From Panopea generosa (taxonomy: Eukaryota; Mollusca; Bivalvia; Adapedonta; Hiatellidae), in contig CM055903.1 in NCBI GenBank assembly GCA_029582155.1, forward strand, positions 43,105,769 through 43,169,768: a stretch of DNA of 64,000 bases, given 5' to 3'. Position 1 is the stretch's first letter. Each line of letters opens with the position of its first letter. The notes beneath the pieces were generated by a model. It ran no database searches. It had not been told where the DNA came from and saw only the letters and a program-made list of their open reading frames with translations. This document shows, in pieces, positions 16,443 through 62,035 of the stretch. The translations under genes and the position numbers were made by a program.

Positions 16443-17722
16443 AAACAAGAGGGTCACAATGGCCCATTTATCGCTCATCTGTGTCAGCTGACCTAATTAA
16501 CTGATCATGTCTGTGAAATTATTCTGAAATTTTACAATGTTATTCGCTGGACATTGCTAAGGGGCCTAAAGGCAAACATGGCCCTAATTTGGTCATCTGA
16601 TTTAATATTCTGCGAATGGCTTAATTGTTCATAAGTATAATACAAACATATTCAAAGTGTTTAGTTATGGTTATATAATTACTATGTAGTGGACATCAAA
16701 TGAAAGCTGCGAGTACTAGAATGCACACAACGTCAAATAATGCAATTTCTGATGATTCAAGGGCAACAACTCAGACATTAATTACCCGATTTGACCAGTT
16801 CAAGAACTTGTCCAAGATATTATTGTTATATAACTACTGTGTAAGATTGGTGAGGATCAAATAAAAAATGTGGGTGCTAGAGTAAACACAACATCAAATA
16901 ATGCAATGTTTGATGATTCGAGGGCCATAACTCCGACAATATTTATCCGATTTGGCCAGTTCAAGAAATTGTCCAAGATATTATGTTTATATAACTACTA
17001 AGTAAGTTTAGTGGACATCAGATGAAAGCTGCCAGTACAAGTGTGCACACAATGTCAAATTATGCAATTTTTGACGATTCAAGGGCCATAACTCAGTAAA
17101 TAATTACCCGATTTGGCCAGTTCAAGAACTTGTCCAAAGTATTAGGGTTATTTAACTACTGCGTAAGTTTGGCGCGGTTCAAATGAAAAATGTAGGTGAT
17201 AGAGTGCACACAACATCAAATAACGCAATTTTTCAAGGGCCATAACTCCCATGATATTTATCCGATTTGGCCAGTTTAAAAACTTTTTCAAGATATAATG
17301 TTTATCTAACTACTATGTCAGTTCGATGGACATCAAAAGAAAGCTGCGAGTACAAGAGTGCCCACAACGTCAAATCATGCAAATTTGACGATTCAAGGGC
17401 CATAACTCAGACATAAATGACCCGATTTTGCCTGTTCAACAACTTTTCCAAGATATTATCGTTATATAACTACTGCGTAAGTTTGGTGAGGATCAAATAA
17501 AAATGCGGGTGTTAGAGTATACACAAGACATTAATAATTCGATTTGGTCAGTTCAAGAACTTGTCCCAGATATTATGATTATATAATTACTTTGTAAGTT
17601 TGGTGAAGACCCAATAAAAAATGCGGGTGCTAGAGTGCACACAACAAAAAGTTCAGGGACGGACGACGGACTGACACAGGGCGATCGGAATAGCTCACCT
17701 TGAGCTTTGCTCAGGTGAACAA
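16443..17722. mobile_element. Hairpin-ended element with ~165-bp tandem units
   Basis: It begins AACAAGAGGGTCACAATGGC and ends with GGACGGACGACGGAC followed by a hairpin (TCACCTTGAGC ... GCTCAGGTGA). Between are about six or seven imperfect units of ~165 bp carrying CAAGGGCCATAACTC, ATCCGATTTGGCCAGTTC, AAGTTTGGTGAGGATCAAAT and GAGTGCACACAACGTC in order. This is a common non-autonomous bivalve repeat type; it has no protein. Confidence 0.65.
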
Positions 17723-27721: not shown

Positions 27722-30318
27722 AGTTCACCAAAGGAAGTGTCAACAATCTAATAGCCATCACCAAATGGAGTGTCAACAGTAATACAGCCATCACCAGAAG
27801 GAAATGTCAACAGTCTTAAAACCATCACAAAAGAAAATGTCAAAAGGCTTTTAACCATCACCAGGGGGCAATGTCAACAACCTTATAGCCACCACCAAAA
27901 GGCAGTGTCAACAGTCTTACAGACATCAACAATGGAAATGTCAACAGTCGTACAGGCATCACCAAAGGAAGTGTCAAAATTCTTACAGTCTTTACTAAAA
28001 GAAGTGTCAACAGTTTAACAGCTCTCGCCAAAAGAAGTGTCAAAAGTCTTACAGCCATCAAAAAGGCAGTGTCAACAGTTTTACAGCCATCACCAAAGGA
28101 AGTGTCATCAGTCTTACAGCCATCACCAAAGGAAGTGCCAACAGTTTTACAGCCATCACCAAAGGAAGTGTCAAAAGTCTTACAGCTTTCACCAAAGGAA
28201 GTGTCAACAGTTTTACAGCTATCACCAAAGGAAGTGAGAACAGCTTTACTGCCATCACCAAAGGAAGTGTCAACAGTCTCACAGCGATCACTAGCCAGGG
28301 GGAAGTGTCAAAAGTCTCACAGCCATTACCAGCCAGGGGTAATTGTCAACAGTCTTACAGCCATCACCAAAGGAAGTGTCAACAGTCTTACAGCAATCAA
28401 CAAAGGCAGTGTTAACAGTCTTACAAGTTTCATCATTGGGAAGTGTCAATAGTCTTGCAGCCATCACCAAAGGAAGTGTCAACAGTCTTACAGCCATCAC
28501 CAAAGCATGTGTCAACAGTCTTACAGCCAACAACAAAGGCAGTGTCAACAGTTTTACAGCCATCACCAAAGGAAGTGTCAACAGTCTTACAGTCATCACA
28601 AAAGGAAGTGTCAACAGTCTTACAGTTATCAGCAAAGGAAGTGACAACAGTCTTCCAGCTATCACAAAATGAACGGTCAATATTTTTCTTGCCATCACCA
28701 AAGGCAGTGTGAACAGCTTTAGAGCCATCACCAAAGGAAGTGTCAACAGTCGTACAGCAATCACCAAAGGAATTGTCAACAGTCTTACAGCTATCACCAA
28801 AGGCAGTGTCAAAAGTCTTAGACCATCTCCAAATGAAGTGTCTACAGTCTTCAAGCAATCACCAAAGGCAGTGTCAACAGTCTTACTGTCATCACCAAAC
28901 AAAGTGTCAACAGTCTTACAGCCATCACAAAAGGAAGTGTCAACAGTTTTAGAGGCATCGCCAAAGGAATTATCAACAGTCTTACAGCCATCACCGAAGG
29001 CAGTGTCAACAGTCTTACAGTTAGCACCAGGGCAAAGTGTCATCAGTCTTTCCGCCATCAACAACGGCAATGTCAACAGTCTTACATCCATCACCAGGGG
29101 TAAGAGTCATCAGCCTTACAGCCATCACCAAAGAAAGTGCAAAAACAGTCTAACAGCCATCAACAAAAGCAATATCTTCAGTCTTACAGCCATCAACAAA
29201 AGAAGTGTAAACTGTCTTACAACCATCAACAAAGGCACTGTCAACAGTCTTACAGCCATCAACAAAAGCATTGCCAACATTCTTACAGCCATCACAAAAG
29301 AATGTGTCATCCGTTTTACAGCCATCAACAAAAGCAGTATCAACAGTCATACAGCCATCAACAAAGGAAATGAAAATAGTTTTACAAACATCAACAAATG
29401 CAGTGTCAACAGCCTTACAACCATCAGCAAAGGCATCGTCAACAGTCTTATAGCCATCACCAGGGGGGAAGTGTCACCCGTATTACAGCTATCATCAAAG
29501 TCAGTGTCAACTGTCTTACAGCCATCACCAGGGGGGAAGTGTTAACATTCTTACAGCCATCGACGAAAGCAGTGTCAACAGTCTTACAGCCATCACCAAA
29601 GGAAGAGTCAACAGTCTCACAGCCTGGGTGAAATGTCAACAGTTTACAGCCAGCACCAGTGGGAAGTATCAACAATCTTACAACCATCAATAAAGGCAGG
29701 GTCAAGAGTCATACAGCCATCAACAAAAGCAGTGTCACCAGTTTTGCAGCCATCACCATGGGTAAGTGTCAACAGTCTTACAGCCATCGCCAGTGGGAAA
29801 TGTCATCAGTCTTACAGCTATCAACAAAAGCAGTGTCAACAGTCTTACAGCCACTATCAAATGAAGTTTAAACAGTCTTACAGCAATAACCTAGGGAATG
29901 TGTCAACAGTCTGACAGCCATCACCTGGGGAAGTGTCACAGCCATCAACAAAGGCAGTGTCAACAGTTTTACAGCCACCATCATAGGAAGTATAGATAAT
30001 CTTACAGCCAAACCTAATGCAAATGTCGACAGTCTTACATCCATCACCAAAGGAAGTGTCAACAATCTTACAACCTTTACCAAAAGCAGCGTATACAGTC
30101 TTACAGCCATCACTAAAGGCTATGTCAATAGTCTTACAGTCATTGCCAAAGGAAGTGTCAACAGTTTTACAGCCATCACCAAAAGCAGCGTCAACAGTCT
30201 TACAGCCATCAACAAAGGCAGTGTCAACAGTCTTACAGCCATCACCAAAGGCAATATTAACAGTCTTACAGCCATCACCAGGGGGAAGTGTCATCAATCT
30301 AACAGCCATCAACTGCCA
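27722..30318. repeat. 33-bp minisatellite, about 79 copies
   Basis: The unit is made of TCAACAGTCTTACAGCC followed by ATCACCAAAGGAAGTG. Because 33 is a multiple of three, five of six frames stay open for long stretches. Plus-frame unit peptides are GSVNSLTAITK, VSTVLQPSPKE and KCQQSYSHHQR; minus-frame ones are DGCKTVDTSFG and MAVRLLTLPLV. The longest frames are about 270-280 codons, and small insertions (for example AGCCAGGGG segments near 28295 and 28330) shift frame along the array, so one continuous protein is not maintained. Sub-families are visible: ATCACCAAAGG units dominate 28080-29030, ATCAACAAAAGCAG units dominate 29150-29450. No promoter, start context or splice sites were recognised, so it is called a satellite. 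Confidence 0.93.
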
Positions 30319-41762: not shown

Positions 41763-42419
41763 AAACGCTGACTTTATATCAATAAAATTAAATGAATATA
41801 TTAACTATAGTATCACTCAATTTATAGATAAAGCACTGTTTCAACAATTAAATATAACAGTATAGATTCGAACCCACGGCCCCTTCGGTATCAGCGCCTA
41901 GCACATTAATGACGACGTCTCTACCGACTGCGCCACCGCAACAACATATTTCCGAAATGGCGTTGTTGCGGTGGCGCAGTCGGTAGAGACGTCGTCATTA
42001 ATGTGCTAGGCGCTGACGCCGCAGGGGCCGTGGGTTCGAATCCCCAAAGTGGCAAAAAAATATTTCCGAAATTGTCCGTGGTCAGGTGAATAAGACATGT
42101 GTCGCTCCTCTCCATTGAGTCATTAAAAGTAGGAATAATACAAAATATTGAATGTAAATATTATAAATCCCGCCTATGTCCTGTGTACATTAATGGCGAC
42201 GCCAATATATGCGCTATTTGCGCAACGTTATTTGGCGTTATTGCGGTGGCGCAGTCGGTAGAGACGTCGTCATTAATGTGCTAGGCGTTGACGCCGCAGG
42301 GGCCGTGGGTTCGAATCTATACTGTTATATTTAATTGTTGAAACAGTGCTTTATCTATAAATTGAGTGGTAATATAGTTAATATATTCATTTAATTTTAT
42401 TGATATAAAGTCAGCGTTT
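41763..42419. repeat. 183-bp inverted repeat made of two head-to-head SINEs
   Basis: The left arm (41763-41945) is the reverse complement of the right arm (42237-42419) with only a few mismatches. In each arm the inner half is a tRNA-like head (box A GGTGGCGCAGTCGG, box B GTGGGTTCGAAT) and the outer half is an AT-rich body containing ACAGTGCTTTATCTATAAA. The heads face each other, so polymerase III transcription would run outward in both directions. The spacer holds a third tRNA-like head. It may be two SINE insertions or one fold-back element that captured a tRNA. Confidence 0.88.
41959..42059 (+). repeat. Retroposed tRNA-like sequence with target duplication
   Basis: A ~90-bp tRNA-like sequence with perfect box A (TGGCGCAGTCGG) and box B (GGTTCGAATCC) ends in CAAAAAAA. 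It is flanked by direct copies of ATATTTCCGAAAT at 41946-41958 and 42060-42072. Its length suggests a long variable arm, as in Ser or Leu tRNAs, but no clean anticodon stem was found. Confidence 0.75.
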
Positions 42420-43469
42420 GGTGTGTGACAGCCGCGTGTAAATGGAGATCAACATATATTGAGACAGATAAAGCATGTTTCCAAAAAGAAAATATGAAAT
42501 GTATGGGTTTGAAATAATAGCATATGAAGGAATAGTTTAATTTACCTTTCCTTTTATCTTGAAATAACGAATAAGAGAGTAGTCTTATTTGGCAAATCAA
42601 ACTATAATTGCATAACGCAGTCACGAGAAGTAAACACAATACTAATACAGCAACTGTGGAGGTTGCTAGGATTGGAACAAAAAAGGCGTTATATTCAGGT
42701 TCGACCGTTGTTTAAACAATAGCGACATATATAAGTTACATTTATGATACATTTAAAGACGCCAGACTTCGTGACGTTGAGAAATGTACCATGTGAAAAG
42801 CTCGCCAAACATATATATGTATATATATAATAAATGGAGATAATTATTTTGTGAATAACCAAACATAAATGTACAGACCAGACTAAGTCGAGCGCGCCTA
42901 CCTACAATGCAAACAATAAACACAATATCAGGGCATCTGCCAAACCAATAAATGGTGTCAACCATGACTTATGTACTATGGTTTTTCATTCAACATATCT
43001 GGACTGGACAGACAATTAACATACATGAACTGATAGTTTATATGAGTAAGATTCAGTCAAAGAGATTTGTGACTACTCACATGCTATATAAAGGACATGT
43101 GTATAAATCATTTCGATGTATTCTAGTAACATTTTAGATCTACTAAGAAAAAAAACCAACACAAAATGTTTTAATTGTTGAGTGACTGAATGACCGTCAC
43201 ACATCGTGTAAATACTTTGTTATTATATTCACTGTTGTAAAAGTAGATACCAGTTTATTTTGACAGAACAGCAACATAGTCTTATGTGACGTCACTCAAT
43301 ATCCGACGAAGAAGCTAGAACAAAGACCATATATATTTGGCTATAAGTTATTTGGCTATTTGGAAGGTACTGATACAACATTCAGCTGAGTCAACGTGGT
43401 TACACGATTACACAAACATTGTAGTAATAGGTTATAAGAGTCCTCGAATAAATCAAAACAAACGTATAC

Positions 43470-46499: not shown

Positions 46500-47522
46500 C
46501 TTCAGTAAAAATAAACATATTTATACAATTCGTACGGAAAAGGTTGTCGATATATGTATATATACATACTGATTAGGAATTGTAATATGTAGATAAGCTG
46601 CTCCGCTTACAGAACTAATTGTAAAATTTCGATTTTATCGTACATAGTCGCTAGCCTTCCTTTTAGGTCGCATATAGTTTTAAAATGATCTCAAAACAAA
46701 TGCTTAACAAGCCAGAGGATAGGTTATATGATATTGTACTCAACTGATTTAAATTTTGAACAATGAGTTTGCACGTTCATAACTGCAAATATGGATATTA
46801 TCATTATACTTTTAGATATCATTGAGGCGTCGAGCCCGGTTTCACCCTACATATACTGAACGTAACTGCTAACCCGCCACTTTTATATTTCCAGTATCTA
46901 TGAATAGCAGTGTCGATATATTGAGAAGTGTAATCAAAATTTATTGTTGTTTTATTTTATAAAGCATTATTGTTGTTTTTTTATCCAAGTCAAAATTTCA
47001 ATGAAATTGCGTTTATAATGTTTGAGAAAATTCATGAAATGTCCGGTACATAAAATGTCAGGTGGCGGGTTAGCTGTTCCGGTCATTATAAAACTTAAGA
47101 TTTTCCTTAACGGTTTTTTATTGAATACTGTTACCTCACTTAAATTGATTATGTCGCATGATATATTTACCAATAAATGCATATGTGTTATGAATGTACA
47201 TATGTAATTGTCTTTGGTTAAGCAATTTTGTTGGGAAGAATTCAATTTAAAAGTATGTTTTCTAAAACTACGTGAAACGGACCCCTTGACTCTGAGTGGC
47301 ACAAAATATAATTTATAGATAAAGTAAGTGATGCTTGTTACTCAACCATTTTTCTCCGGCACGTATTGGCTATCAGAAATTAGTAAATGTACCAACAGGT
47401 CTGAATTTGAACAACTATGCTTAATAAAAACTAACCGATTACCGAGTTTAATCAATATTATGTAATCTGCATTGCTTTAGTTGATTCATCAAATATTTTT
47501 AGCATACCGCACGATTGTATAC
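46500..47522. other. Intron of the EGF-kringle gene, nothing else recognised
   Basis: AT-rich sequence between the LINE fragment and the kringle 2 first exon. Confidence 0.45.
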
Positions 47523-47617
47523 CATTCCAAAACGCCATGCATCACATGTTTCGCCGTCAGCGGCAGTATTCCATGTTCCGAAGTACACATCAACATCCTC
47601 AAGCACACAGTTAGTTT
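47523..47617 (-). CDS. Kringle 2, first exon, of the EGF-kringle gene
   Basis: After acceptor AAATTCTAACAG it encodes TNCVLEDVDVYFGTWNTAAD followed by GETCDAWRFGM and ends at donor ATG then GTATAC in phase 0. The spacing Cys, YxGxxxTxxxGxxCxxW is that of a kringle N-terminal half. It begins with two bases of a split codon, matching the phase-1 end of EGF-like exon 2 (51664), and joins exon 43470-43596 without shift. The joined kringle keeps all six cysteines and the Trp after cysteine 2. Confidence 0.75.
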
Positions 47618-48224
47618 CTGTTAGAATTTAAAAGAATTAAAAATGATCAGTTTGATTAAACATCGCTAATTCTAACTTTATTTCTATAAAACATTATAAA
47701 GGACAACACAGCATTTTTTCTATACTTATATTGTAATTATTTAGGATTTATTCGTTTGCATTTCTAGATTGTAAATGTCTACTACCTCAAGTTAAGGCGT
47801 ATACATAACTACATGTAATAATACACATCGCATATCATGTTTTAAAACAAATATATCAAAGTAAATGTAGGCTACCGTAGGCAGAGAACATGCATGAAAA
47901 CGATGTTTTATAGGGAAAGCAAATAAATCTATATTTAAAGGGCAGAGCGAAGCTTGTGTAACCTATTTTGATCATTTAAAACTGTATATTACGGTGTTCA
48001 ACGATACAACGCTGACGTTACCGACATCTCACCATGAAAATGTAGATGGCCTGCTTGGCATATGAACTAATTGTGTGGATAAAGTACACATCCTTTTGGA
48101 ATAAATTACACATCCTTTTGGAATAAAGTACACATCCTTTTGCAATACGCTTTGGATCTGTATATACAAGTCGTATGATGCAGTTGTCATACCTGTCTCC
48201 AGTCGAGGCCGGGAAACATTACTG

Positions 48225-48253
48225 TGTGCGTATATATATATATATATATATCT
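48225..48253. repeat. TA microsatellite
   Basis: A GTATATATATATATATATAT run of about 26 bp. Confidence 0.9.
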
Positions 48254-48588
48254 CGGTAACATCATAACAAGTTATAACTGCGTTTATTTGTGTAAATAAT
48301 GAGGATTTTATTGGCCACCATAATATCCAATACAGACGAATAAAATCAGTATGTATACATTCCGGTTATATTATAGTCCACCTGTTATCAGTTAATCAAT
48401 GGTTTAAGCGGTGCCCTGTGGCTTTGTTGTTGTTATTGTTGTAGTGATTTTTTCTTGTTGTATCGTCTGAGAATAGAGCAAGTTTGTATTAAAAATATAC
48501 TCCAAGTAATATTAAATGAACTTTTATTTTGTTGATAAAGTTTTACAAAGATTCAAAATAAAAGACAGAATAGACTGCCGTATTAGAA

Positions 48589-48880
48589 TTACTTAGAGAT
48601 TGTATTCCCTATTCTCAGTTCAGTGAACAAACCAATGAAAACTGGTGGCCCCGGACCGACAATGAGAGATGGGCTAAAGATCAACGCGTATGCCATTACG
48701 CAGCTTACCTGTAAGGATTTTGTCTTCGAAGAAGTTGTGTCAAGGAAGTGGCCGAACAAAGAAAGCCATAAATTGGAAATCGCATTACAATACAGAAATA
48801 GTTGTCTTTTTATCAAACAGCTGACGGCATACTTATCAGTATAAACAAAGAGACCAGGCGTTGTTTTTGAAATCAACTAT
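48589..48880. other. Open stretch on both strands, function unknown
   Basis: The plus strand is open for 73 codons (GGPGPTMRDGLKINAYAI) and the minus strand for 95 (GPGPPVFIGLFTELRIGNTI). The minus reading follows a possible acceptor (GATCTTTAG) and is faintly reminiscent of a beta-strand region in the extracellular domain of Cys-loop receptors. That resemblance is weak and could be chance. The segment lies in the intron after EGF-like exon 2. Confidence 0.25.
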
Positions 48881-48894
48881 TTATACTTAAACGT

Positions 48895-51663
48895 ACTTCA
48901 GATAAAAGAAGATGACCTTTGTCACATTTTTTCTCCAGTTCAGCCAGGAGAACACTATTCTGTTCATATTCCGGTTATTATTATTACACGTCTGTTACAA
49001 CTAGACCTCTATGTGTATAAAAGATGATAACCTCTAATTATTGTTACAATTAGACTTTTCTCTGTATAAAATAAGCTTACCGTGGTCCATCTGAGCCACG
49101 AGAACATCCTTCTGGGTACATTCCGTTACATTATTACACGTTTGTTAGAACAAGACTTCTCTGTGTATAATAGACGATTACCGTCGCAACATTTTTTCTA
49201 GCCAAGCCAAGAGATCATCCTTCAGTACATACTCCGGTTACATTATAACGCGTGTTTTACAACTAGACATCTCTGTGTATAAATGACGATTACCTTTGTC
49301 ACATATTTCTCCAGCCCATCCAGGACAACATCCGGTTACATTATAACACGTGTTTTACAACTAGATATCTCTGTGTATAAATGACGATTACCTTTGTCTC
49401 ATTTTTCTCCAGCCCATCCAGGAGAACATCCTTCTGGACACATTCCAGTTACATTATAACACGTGTTTTACAACTAGACCTCTCTGTGTATAAATGACGA
49501 TTATGTTTGTCTCATCTTTCTCCAGCCCATCCAGGACAACATCCTTCTGGATACATTCCGTTTACATTATTACACGTCTGTTACAACAAGACCTCTCTGT
49601 GTATAATAGATGATTACCTTCCTCACATTTTTTTAGCCCATCCAGGCGAATATCATTCTGGACACGTTTCGGTAAAATTATAACGTGTCTGTTACAACAA
49701 GACTCTCTTTGTTTAAAAGAAGGTTACCCTAGTCATATTTTTTATCCAGCCCAATCATGAAATTCTTCTTCTAGACACATTCAGTCACATTATTACACAT
49801 ATGTTGCACCTAGACTTCTTTGTGTATGAAAAAAAAAAACGATTACCTTTGTCCCACTTTTTCCAGCCAAGCCAGGAGAACAGCCATCTGGACACATTCC
49901 AGTAACATTATTACACATATGTTATAACTAGACTTCTCGATGTATAAAATAGGCTCACCTTCGTTACATTTTTCTCTAGCCCAGCCAGAAGAACAACCTT
50001 CTTGACACATTCCAGTTACATTATTCCACGTATGTGATAACTTAACTAGACTTCTCTGTGAATATAAAAAGAAGCATACCTTCGTCACGTTTTTCTCCAG
50101 CCCAGCCAGAAGAACATCCTTCTTGACACATCATTCCAGTCACATAATTACACGTATGTTATGAATACACTTCTCTGTGAATACAAGAAGCTTACCTTCG
50201 TCACATTTTTCTCCCGCCCAGCCAAAGGAACAGCCTTCTTGACACATTCCAGTTACATTATTACACTATATGATAAATTACACTATATGATAACTATACT
50301 TCTTTGTTAATAAAAGAAGCTTACTTTCGTCACAATTTTTCTCCAGCCCAGCCAGAAGAACATCCTTCTTGACACATTCCAGTTACATTATTCCATGTAT
50401 GTTATAACTAGACTTTTCTGTGAATAAAAAAAGTTTGCCTTTGTCTCACATTTCTCCAGCCCATCCAGGAGAACATTCATCTGGACACATTCCGTTTTCA
50501 TTATTACACGTCTGTTACAACTAGACCTCTATGTGTATAAAAGATGATAACCTTCCTCACATTTTTCTCCAGCGAATAACATTCTGGACACGTTTCGGTT
50601 AAATTATAACATGTCTGTTACAACAAGACTCTCTTTAAAAGAAGGTTACCCTCGTCTTATCTTTATCCAGCCTAGTCATGAAATCATTCTTCTAGACACA
50701 TTCAGTTACATTATTACACGTATGTTACACCTATACTTCTTTGTGAATAAAAGAAGCTTACTTTCGTCACATTTTTCTCTAATCCAGCAAAACAATAAAC
50801 TTATTGGCATATTCCAGTTATATTATTCCACGTATGTGATAACCAGACTTCTCAGTGAATAAAAGAAGCTTACCTTCGTTACATTTTTCTCTAGCCCAGC
50901 AAGAGGAACGGCCTTCTTGACACATTCCCGTCACATTATTACGCGTATGTTATACCAAGACTTCTCTGTGAATAAAAGAAGCTTACCTTTGTCACATTTT
51001 TCTCAAACCAAGCAAAACAATAAACTTATTGACACATTCCAGTTACATTATTCCACGTATGTGATAACTAGACTTCTCTGTGAATAAAAGAAGCTTACAT
51101 TTGTTACATTTTTCTCCAGCCCAATAAGAGGAACAGCCTTCTTGACACATTCCCGTCACAGTATTACACGTATGTTATAACAAGATTTCTCTGTGAATAA
51201 AAGAAGCTCACTTTTGTCGCATTTTACTCCAGCCCAGCCAAAGAACAGCCTTCTTGACACATTCCAGTTACATTATTACACGTAATACAATGGTATAACT
51301 GAACTTCTGTGTGAATAAAAGAAGCTCATTTTTCCGTAGCCCAGCCAGAAGAACAACCTTCTTGACACACTCCAGTTACATTATTACACGTATGTTATAA
51401 CTAGACTTCTCTGTGAATAAATAAAGTTTACCTTCGTCACTTTTTTCTCCAGCCCAGCCAGGAGAACATCCTTCTAGACACCTTTCGGTTACATTATTCC
51501 ACGTCTGTTGTAACTAGACTTCTCTGTGAATAAAAGACGCTTACCTTCGCCACCTTTTTCTCCAGCCCAGCCAGAGAAACATCCTTCTTGACATATTCCA
51601 GTTACATTATTACACGTAATACTATGTTATAACTAGACTTCTCTGTGAATAAAAGAAGCTTAC
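48895..51663 (-). repeat. ~112-bp tandem array derived from an EGF exon
   Basis: About 25 units follow one another on the minus strand. Each contains TGTAATAATGTAACTGGAATG and TGTCCAGAAGGATGTTCTCC, which read VTGMCPEGCSPGWAGEKC, then a GAAG/GTAAGC donor, then about 44 bp of intron-like DNA (AAGCTTCTTTTATTCACAG, AGAAGTCTAGTTATAACATA). The intact source is EGF-like exon 2 at 51664-51801, which starts the array. The units are not exons: the would-be acceptor TTATTCACAG lies only about 15 bp after the donor, and TAA stands in frame just before the EGF part. It is an intronic satellite born from the 3' half of an exon plus its donor. Confidence 0.85.
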
Positions 51664-51801
51664 CTTTGTCACATTTTTCTCCAGCTCAGCCAGGAGAACA
51701 TCCTTCTAGACACATTCCAGTTACATTATTATACGTCTGTTTACACTGGAAGCATCCATGCTGACATCGTTTTCCAAAGTAGTACTTCGGGCAATGATAT
51801 T
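51664..51801 (-). CDS. EGF-like domain 2 exon of the EGF-kringle gene, with TGA
   Basis: Follows acceptor TTTATGTTTAAG and ends at donor AAAG then GTAAGC. It encodes a complete EGF-like domain: CPKYYFGKRCQHGCFQC, YNNVTGMCLEGCSPG and AGEKCDK. It begins with two bases of a split codon and ends in phase 1, fitting kringle 1 exon 2 upstream and kringle 2 exon 1 downstream. A TGA at 51686-51688 replaces the Trp of the GW motif; the neighbouring array copies that can be read there keep TGG. One expected cysteine (TY where domain 1 has PC) is also changed. The gene may therefore be a pseudogene, or this may be a recent null allele or a sequencing error. Confidence 0.75.
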
Positions 51802-57398: not shown

Positions 57399-57508
57399 CG
57401 TGTTCTTTGCGGCTTGTTCTGGATGGTCACTCCATCGTAGACACGTGTACCCGTTAATCGATGTTGATTTAATTCCACGGTATAGTCGACCGTCTCCAAT
57501 TTGGCACT
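57399..57508 (-). CDS. Kringle 1, first exon, of the EGF-kringle gene
   Basis: After acceptor TCTCAAAACAG it encodes ECQIGDGRLYRGIKSTSING followed by YTCLRWSDHPEQAAKNT and ends at ACG then GTATG. This is the N-terminal half of a kringle (C, GDGxxYRGxxSxTxxGxxCxxW). It begins with two bases of a split codon, which fits the phase-1 end of EGF-like exon 1 at 61180. Its phase-0 end matches kringle 2's first exon but not the present start of 55449-55574. Confidence 0.8.
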
Positions 57509-57589
57509 CTGTTTTGAGAAAACAAAATGTAACTTGCTGGGATATACAGATTGAAACATATTTAAATGCTGTAAAAATATTATTGTTGT

Positions 57590-59070: not shown

Positions 59071-59439
59071 GTCTCGTTTTAAATTATTATATATCTATAT
59101 AAAGGTAGAATGATACTTTGCCTCCCAGATCAGAAAGGAACTGTGAGACAACTTAATATAAAAATGTTCTGCTTGAAACCGACGATACCATTGCAAACAA
59201 GAATTATATTTTTGTTGATGATCATGGCATTTTTATGTATATAATGAAAGCTGTATGGACGATAAATAAGCATGTGTTCGTATGGTGTTTAACGCCACTT
59301 TCATCAATGTTTCAGCTTTATTGCGACTGTGTCCACTTAAGACGCATTTTACAATATGTAATAACAGGGAAATAAGTCTGTGTGAGTGAGTATCTTCAGG
59401 AAGTCATATACCAGCGCCTAAAAGGCAAGATCCGATATA

Positions 59440-60370
59440 TCTGTTAACAAAGCGAGAGTGGGCCTGTTTGGTTACTATCCATCAAAAACGGTTTAAACAG
59501 ATAAACAGTTTCGATTGGATTATTTGGCTTTCCGTTTTACTTATTCTGTCAGGTGACGTCCACGAAAATCCAGGTCCAGCTTCATCTAATACATCCGATA
59601 TGAGTTCCGGCTCGTCCTCAACTATGCCTAACGGATCATTTGACCTTTCAGAACTTATTTTTAGCCATCTCTCATTTATTCATTATAATTTCTAAAGCTT
59701 TGCCCCAAAGATACACCAAATGTATGCTGATGTATGCTCTTTTGAATTATTGGCTGTCACTGGTTTAATAACATTACATCTACATCGGATCTTGCCTTTT
59801 CTAACTACCAAACAATCTTCCATAAGGATCGCCTGACTAATAGATATAGCGGTTTCCCAGTTTATAATAAGGATACGATCACTGCTCGCCGAGGGCAAGA
59901 TTTAGAGGTAAACGTCATTAAATGTATATGCTTAGACATGAAGGTGAAACATCAACCTATTCTGTATGGCGTTTTCTACCGTCTACCGTATTCCATTGCT
60001 GATGTCCTTTCGTGAATTCAGGATTCCATAGCCGTATCTGTCGATACCCATATTAAAGACATAGGCACTACGGTTACTGGTGATTTTAATCTCGACTGTC
60101 TCAAATCTGCATCTCGATTGAAAATTTGTATGCAAATCGGCATTTCCCAACTTATTTCAGAACCAACCAATTTCACCGAGTCTTCACAGTCCATTATTGA
60201 CATTTTTCTTGTATCCTCCCCCAATGTATTATTCATTTGTGGTGTAGGTAAACCCTTTTTTGAGCAGAATATTCACTACCATTGTCCAGTTTTTGTTGTA
60301 CCAGATACCCTAAACCCCGACACAAACCATTCAAGCTCAAATTGGATATTTAACTTGGTGTTAGCATAAT
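59440..60370 (+). mobile_element. LINE 5' part: N-terminus and endonuclease of ORF2
   Basis: A hydrophobic start (DWIIWLSVLLILSGDVHENPGP-type, here FDWIIWLSVLLIL then SGDVHENPGP) is followed by a Ser-rich linker and an apurinic-type endonuclease: FIHYNF at 59678, FELLAVTGL at 59740, a YGVFYRLPY block at 59965, VTGDFNLDCL at 60073 with catalytic D and N, and LISEPTNFTESSQSIIDIFL to HYHCPVFVV at 60145-60295. This is the layout of CR1/L2-group LINEs. Several stops and shifts break it (for example a TAA after IHYNF). The reverse transcriptase is absent after 60370, so the copy is 3'-truncated or interrupted. Confidence 0.75.
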
Positions 60371-61179: not shown

Positions 61180-61311
61180 CTTTTTCGCACCGATCACCAA
61201 ACCATCCAGGTAAGCATCCATCCATGCATAAACCGGAAACGTTGTAACACGGTTCCTGACAAAGTACGCAGGGCTTTAAACACTTCTCGCCATAATAGTA
61301 AGGCTCGCATT
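61180..61311 (-). CDS. EGF-like domain 1 exon of the EGF-kringle gene
   Basis: After acceptor ATTTACGTAG it encodes CEPYYYGEKCLKPCVLCQEP, CYNVSGLCMDG and CLPGWFGDRCEK, an intact EGF-like domain with eight or more cysteines of the CxPxYYGxxC ... GCxPGWxGxxC type found in MEGF- and receptor-like proteins. It ends in phase 1 at AAAAG then GTGCTA and joins the kringle 1 first exon in frame. It begins with two bases of a split codon, so at least one more exon lies upstream (above 61311); none was recognised before the window end. The set EGF-kringle-EGF-kringle is visible, every module bounded by phase-1 introns. Confidence 0.8.
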
Positions 61312-62035
61312 CTACGTAAATAAGATGAAAAAAAAAAAAGAAAAGAAAATCATCTTGAATAAGTTTTTACATATCGTTACGAAAGGAGGTATAGTGCATT
61401 CAAATCTTGCGAATATTCATTTTTTTAGAATTCGAAACATTGTTGTTTTCTGAATATAATGTATAAAATAAATTTTATACGAAACATTTTTTTTCTATAT
61501 TCGCATATATAGTATTCCTTTGCATAAATATCTTCGAGGCTTGACAATCAACGTTTAAACGTCGCCATGAATTTAAACTAGTGTTATCTATAATGCAATT
61601 TATATAATTTTAATAAATTCAATTTACATGTGTGAAACAAAGTATGCAACTAACAGGAAACGTTAAAGCCTAAAAATCTACACCCATACTCTTTATAAAC
61701 AGAACAATAAAAAAAAACGAAAATACTGTAATTCAAGACAGGAGTCACCTCCTTGGAATTATCAGAAGCAAAAGACACCACTTAGGATTTTAAACATGGA
61801 TAACGGGTAGAGCCCAAGCCCCAACTATTTTCTTACCAATACGGCAGCATTTACATTTTGTAACGTATAGAATGCTCAGGTAAATAGATATAATTTACAA
61901 TACATGAACAGTATACGTGAAAGGTCAAGGTCATGTCAATGTGAGATGGTCGTGTAATTTTAGCAAGAAGCGTTAGTTTGCCTAGTATTTTCGTAAGGTT
62001 TTGCGTGTCAGTTGTGTGTAGCGGATATAATTAAC
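61312..62035. other. Presumed upstream intron, no exon recognised
   Basis: AT-rich sequence; no EGF or kringle motif was seen on the minus strand. Confidence 0.4.

Follow-up and report, generated by a model that had tools for sequence, protein, structure and literature searches.

An intronic minisatellite most likely derived from the end of an EGF-like exon and its splice donor in the bivalve Panopea generosa

Ordinary intronic minisatellites and VNTRs have grown from local tandem duplication, and the arrays of the Dscam type are tandem exon duplications. In human IFI6 (6-16, G1P3), a minisatellite with a unit of 12 bp reportedly supplies several splice donors, as Turri, Cuin and Porter are said to have found in 1995. 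To our knowledge, the start of a tandem repeat is rarely seen, since most arrays have lost their parent sequence. For IFI6, one report describes downstream repeat units that serve as donor sites (PMC4526556). In the literature, searched at the level of titles and abstract openings and with most subscription journals outside its scope, no array like the one analysed here was found to be described.

The window, i.e., the whole stretch of 64,000 nucleotides that was analysed, corresponds to C10:43105769-43169768 of the 1.47 Gb assembly of Panopea generosa. A sequence-only reading of this stretch had proposed a satellite that is built from half an EGF exon and its donor and lies inside an intron. 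This proposal is borne out. A profile built from the array itself gives 26 matching rows on the minus strand, one in EGF-like exon 2 and 25 below it, down to 48900, and Tandem Repeats Finder, which works without the profile, reports 49331-51738 with a period of 113, 21.2 copies and a score of 1854. Two of the 25 unit matches are fragments (48987-49033 and 48900-48977), and the mutual divergence of the units is ~20%. The array fills ~2.76 kb of the 4.05 kb intron (47618-51663), and it has the make-up of a minisatellite, in which units with a length of tens to ~100 bp are repeated head to tail at one locus. Each unit does combine exon, donor and intron as had been claimed, but the lengths of ~70 bp of exon and ~44 bp of intron have to be corrected to ~80 bp of the exon 3' end (starting near CAGTGTAAACAG) and ~30 bp, respectively. 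Similarly, the claim of a GTAAG donor in each unit stands for the GT, which is found in 23 of the 26 rows with the exon row counted, but not for the longer motif, as GTAAG or GTGAG is found in just 11 of them.

The exon at the 5' end of the array had been called intact. Actually, it reads TGA in place of a Trp codon and TAT in place of a Cys codon; the exons of all eight other C10 copies have TGG and TGT there. Since the TGA stands where these eight exons read TGG, the window copy of the exon is broken. The suggestion that the units keep the older state TGG proved right: 17 of the 25 units have TGG (TTG in 3, TAG, TCA and TGA in 1 each, and 2 gapped), and the eight paralogous exons confirm it.

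Table 1. Features of the EGF/kringle gene and of the array in the window, with positions counted from the first letter of the window.
Feature	Position	Strand	Remarks
EGF-like exon 1, open, upstream	61181..61312	-	EGF1
Kringle-like half-domain exon, upstream	57429..57512	-	Pfam Kringle 25.2 bits, cut-off 34.3
EGF-like exon 2 (EGF2)	51664..51801	-	138 bp, phase 1-1, EGF/kringle gene; in-frame TGA and Cys-to-Tyr codon
Minisatellite	48900..51663	-	25 matches to the ~113-bp unit, which comprises the 3' part of the exon, the donor and ~30 bp of intron with acceptor-like CACAG
Exon-proximal units with derived marker base	50717..51663	-	T in TTATTCACAG
Interruption of derived-marker units	50507-50714	-	marker line of L009
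Four units with derived base again	50027-50504	-	distal to the interruption 50507-50714
Ten distal units with ancestral marker base	48987..50024	-	A in TTATACACAG, as in 11 of 12 C6/C18 exons
Next exon downstream, first half of kringle-like domain	47508..47615	-	Pfam Kringle 16.3 bits, cut-off 34.3; query with 4 wrong tail residues
ORF with hydrophobic, perhaps transmembrane segment; possible downstream exon, putative limits	42397..42711	-	

On the minus strand of the window, the exon order is EGF1, kringle half, EGF2, the array in its intron, and second kringle half (Table 1). When EGF2 is read from the paralogous locus L012, it scores 18.5 bits against Pfam EGF_laminin (cut-off 21) and 15.3 bits against DSL (cut-off 24.2), both sub-threshold. 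Elsewhere the window contains a 33-bp minisatellite of ~78 copies (27725-30311) and a 161-bp tandem repeat of ~5 copies (16695-17526), which we take, by its length and text, to recall a conserved bivalve repeat. There is also an ORF at 59390-59695 containing SGDVHENPGP, presumably a 2A-like motif and perhaps the start of a non-LTR retroelement.

We have searched the genome with 37 residues of the exon and obtained 73 matches (94 of 94 candidates scored), from which the 21 with E <=6.2e-7 were kept; weaker EGF matches (E 2.7e-6 and above, on C6, C8, C10, C18 and C19) lie outside this set. Nine of the 21 loci are located on C10 within 1.2 Mb, one on C18, and eleven on C6. Counted with the window-trained profile and with the exon included, there are 26 rows in the window, 17-32 in the nine C10 copies, 10 in L019, 9 in L020, 7 in L022, 6 in L024, 4 each in L018 and L021, 2 each in L023 and L028, and 1 each in L025, L026, L027 and L029. 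Rows of 16-35 bits that stand apart from the main array, in L010, L014, L019, L020, L022, L024 and L028, do not enter the contiguous counts. By these counts, all nine C10 copies have 16-31 units beyond the exon, L019 and L020 have 6 each, L024 has 4, and L018, L021 and L022 have 3 each, while five C6 copies (L025, L026, L027, L028 and L029) have zero. In L023, also on C6, one partial row is followed by a 500-base assembly gap (~1834-2333 in gene orientation). That is, the unit number varies between the locus copies as in a minisatellite, from 0 to 31 extra units over the 21 paralogous loci. The equivalent intron of L025 measures ~0.41 kb. Within the C10 arrays, a 688-bp block is apparently present twice in L011, and L013 has fewer units, so block changes seem to be ongoing there.

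When 781 bp of the array were compared with the whole genome, all 68 matches listed (best candidates only) fell at these 21 gene loci, and no array copy outside them was among the matches listed. A dispersed satellite, or satellite DNA in the strict sense with large arrays at many loci, was rejected on this result.

Overall, we consider it very probable that the array is a neutral intronic minisatellite, born from the 3' part of the exon and its donor by way of a direct repeat. Graded array sizes at one place, a gradient of marker bases along the array, and the absence of a coding signal are all observed. As to the gradient, the distal units of all nine C10 arrays carry the A of TTATACACAG, which is found also in 11 of the 12 C6/C18 exons and in most of their units, and the T of TTATTCACAG is found in the proximal units and in the own intron of the C10 exons. 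In the window, 7 of the 26 rows contain TTATTCACAG exactly, and 5 contain TTATACACAG exactly. Since the ancestral marker is distal and the derived marker proximal in nine of nine C10 arrays, growth should have proceeded in phases, with the latest one next to the exon; these markers support such phases, though they do not prove them. Eight of the nine C10 arrays show in addition a short stretch of the old base within the young part, as after a block duplication, and this stretch is absent in L013.

The intron part of the units points the same way, as its identity to the exon's copy drops with distance in all nine C10 arrays (rho -0.59 to -0.75); for the exon-like part alone, a significant distance trend is found in none of the nine. 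The small C6/C18 arrays vary in this trend, and no drop is seen in L018 and L021, which have 3 units each. A unit tree was calculated for 12 of the 21 loci (rows with at least 75 letters). There, the C10 exons are nested among proximal units of the C10 arrays, and five C18 and C6 arrays have their first units placed together. Judging from these patterns, the array appears to consist of an older distal part and a younger exon-proximal part. The distal end of the C10 arrays gives no match to the other copies over ~500 bp, and so it should have been rearranged later.

The copies with zero extra units are informative on the birth of the repeat. The introns of L025 and L029 contain a direct repeat of the exon middle, over 31 and 40 columns, respectively, and the score is reached by 0 of 2000 shuffles in either case. 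In both loci the exon copy and the intron copy are 113 bp apart. As this spacing equals the unit length, one unit corresponds to the stretch from one direct repeat to the next. The same direct repeat is visible by eye in L026 and L027. The repeat in L028 is weak and non-significant (209 of 2000 shuffles reach its score), and its sequence agrees at 88% over 34 bp with the L024 array at its end. The exon has GTAAACA at the join, but this motif was scored in none of 284 rows; RTAACA is read in 147 rows, RTAAAACA in 28, RTCACA in 21, and 88 are other or cut short. The loss of one A, which is common to about half of all rows, in all 21 loci, supports a single origin without proving it.

Two trees were calculated, from the upstream flank plus exon (21 loci) and from the kringle flank (18 loci), both with midpoint roots only. 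In both of them L025, L026, L027 and L029 stand apart from the rest and L028 is grouped with L018/L021 (0.785 and 0.896, respectively). The attachment of the L025-L029 clade is weak, with 0.132 in the first tree (node with L024) and 0.890 in the second (node with L024 and L019-L022). Because L028 groups with L018/L021, zero units can be reached by loss, and L028 itself has probably lost its units. For L025, L026, L027 and L029 the seed state may be old, or it may result from loss too. L029 also has a 20-bp tandem duplication inside the EGF exon (~1560-1605 in gene orientation), which shifts the frame; lying within the exon, it suggests that the same segment is prone to slippage there as well.

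According to the preferred explanation, a minisatellite of exonic parentage, an early event would have left a 31-40 bp direct repeat of the EGF-exon middle in the intron, at a distance of 113 bp. The two copies could then have undergone slippage or unequal exchange, by which the exon 3' part was duplicated together with the donor and the first ~30 bp of the intron. Through repeated exchange, a few units would have arisen before the C10 cluster was formed; the C10 lineage would have gained many more, next to the exon, and the array would have been carried along as the locus multiplied to nine copies on C10. As the process, we infer slippage or unequal crossing-over.

These nine copies are found in both orientations at C10:42256854-43430143, with a spacing of 92-104 kb in five of the eight intervals and 196-268 kb in the other three. 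The EGF2 exon has stops also in L013 and L016, so that three of the nine C10 exons are broken, and L010 has a stop in the kringle exon. EGF1 is found at no less than four of the nine loci, and is open in all four (E up to 1e-10; best 150 of 695 candidates). With stops in several exons and EGF1 found at four loci, the C10 copies look like a decaying cluster of duplicated genes.

The units might serve as poison exons or decoy donors and so reduce the amount of functional transcript; the more units there are, the more often the EGF exon would be spliced into them. In the window, 23 GT donors (the exon's own counted) and 17 acceptor AGs are predicted to delimit 15 acceptor-to-donor pseudoexons with a median of 92 bp, and all 15 contain a stop in the exon's phase (phase 1). 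Of 127 pseudoexons in the nine C10 arrays, 125 have a phase-1 stop, and one, in L012, is predicted to be harmless. If an array donor were used to lengthen the exon, the reading would end at a stop, which lies 62 nt beyond the exon's donor in eight of the nine C10 copies, including the window, and 41 nt beyond it in the ninth. Use of the predicted sites would thus be mostly harmful. Were the units to work in this way, loci with 0, 3-6 and 16-31 units should differ in their output, and the expansion of the array should have silenced C10 copies before they decayed. However, the stops follow from the structure of the unit and are expected without selection, and several C10 copies look decayed. Moreover, the distance from a donor to the next acceptor is mostly 20 nt; normal introns are longer, and adjacent units would therefore get in each other's way. 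The donor GT also shows no special conservation, even though its variability ranks 18th lowest among 110 dinucleotides in L009, 38th in L014 and 23rd in L017, a point against neutrality. Taken together, we regard a role in tuning the transcript as quite improbable. Recursive splicing, judged from sequence only, was rejected as well, as the unit donor is not preceded by a pyrimidine tract.

Across the C10 copies, codon positions 1, 2 and 3 of the array have 44/508, 45/503 and 37/509 variable sites, respectively, the intron part has 55/763, and the donor GT has 4/46. There is no codon-position signal in the units across these copies, and no sign of selective upkeep of unit donors or reading frames. 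The window differs from L010 by 1.2% in the upstream intron, 1.1% in the array and 1.0% in the downstream intron; these values are 0.7%, 1.3% and 1.1% for L012, and 0.6%, 1.2% and 0.9% for L013. With L012 and L013, the difference in the array exceeds that in the upstream intron, which counts against neutrality, though it is close to that in the downstream intron. In this alignment, the upstream intron of L011 and L014-L017 (25-27% different, which looks misaligned) and the downstream stretches with 12-56% for L014, L015 and L016 were left out.

Summed over the C10 copies, variable sites are somewhat denser in the array (203/2545) than in the 561 bp just downstream (33/561), and this too counts against neutrality. 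Variable sites are denser still in the exon, at 18/138 (P 0.054 against the array and 0.006 against the downstream intron). Pairwise counts in the C10 exons, in which the pairs are non-independent, give 160.5 nonsynonymous versus 8.5 synonymous differences (pN/pS 4.3). Under the same dependence, pN/pS is 2.4 for pairs within L018-L024; comparing these with eight C10 copies (window omitted) gives 0.76. L025-L029 are omitted from these counts, L028 with an extra base and L029 with its 20-bp duplication being out of register. The variability fits relaxed constraint in a decaying cluster, and diversifying selection is possible. One EGF2 codon occurs in six states (Gln, Leu, Met, stop, Arg, Lys) across the 19 copies L009-L027, with Gln the commonest.

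As most differences between the C10 exons change amino acids, it could also be argued that the units form a silent store of half-exons which rewrites the EGF exon by gene conversion, as in the templated diversification of immune receptors. Of the 10 private changes that C10 exons have within the 66 nt homologous to the array, 8 are found at the same position in the exon's own units, where 4.0 are expected if the bases are equally likely, and both private changes of the window exon in that stretch co-occur in the last unit. Yet chance expects 6.06 of 10 once the kinds of change are considered (P 0.146), and the last unit and the exon differ between those two changes (TGAACT versus TGAGCT). In L015 and L017, no unit has all three private changes (2 and 1 at most, respectively), and the array-homologous part shows no significant excess of changes (14 per 85, versus 5 per 53 in the rest; P 0.31). 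Such a store is therefore very unlikely, and conversion from unit to exon is not supported (P 0.146), though the cruder expectation, 4.0 of 10, points in its direction.

We give just as little credit to an assembly artefact, i.e., a repeat falsely expanded or collapsed. Tandem arrays are hard to assemble, and L023 does have its 500-base gap, but the units of the array are far from identical to each other (~20% apart), corresponding units stand in the same order in the three C10 copies of the unit tree, the marker pattern recurs in all nine C10 copies, and the C10 loci contain no N. Finally, it is scarcely credible that the units serve as genuine exons, whether alternative or mutually exclusive: exon-like sequence does lie between AG and GT at 15 places, but a unit holds only half a domain, 14 of the 25 units are frame-gapped and 3 have stops (8 are open, with 21 codons tested), every pseudoexon of the window has its stop in phase, codon positions vary alike, and the units lack the domain in an open frame kept by selection that defines an alternative exon array.

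The array is thus most likely a neutral intronic minisatellite of unusual parentage, with a rare series of birth and growth within one genome. Its parent exon is still attached, and the 21 paralogs show the seed repeat, small arrays and large arrays at one place, together with an age gradient. The birth of a seemingly neutral repeat from coding DNA can be observed here within a single genome. In addition, copies with 0, few and many units are present in the same cells, which would allow a direct test of whether splicing is harmed by numerous pseudoexons with donors inside one intron.

Like the IFI6 minisatellite, the array is a tandem repeat at the end of an exon whose units carry a donor. On the other hand, IFI6 has a short unit and reported use of its donors, while here the unit measures ~113 bp and includes an acceptor-like site in addition to half an EGF exon and a donor; if the array sites were used as predicted, the result would nearly always be a stop. 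With intronic minisatellites and VNTRs it shares local, head-to-tail units in variable number, no dispersed copies found, and no coding signal. It departs from ordinary intronic VNTRs in that its parent is the end of a coding exon with the donor, which is still the first unit, and in that the paralogs range from 0 to 31 extra units. Like the arrays of the Dscam type, it repeats exon-derived units within one gene, but its units are half exons without a usable frame.
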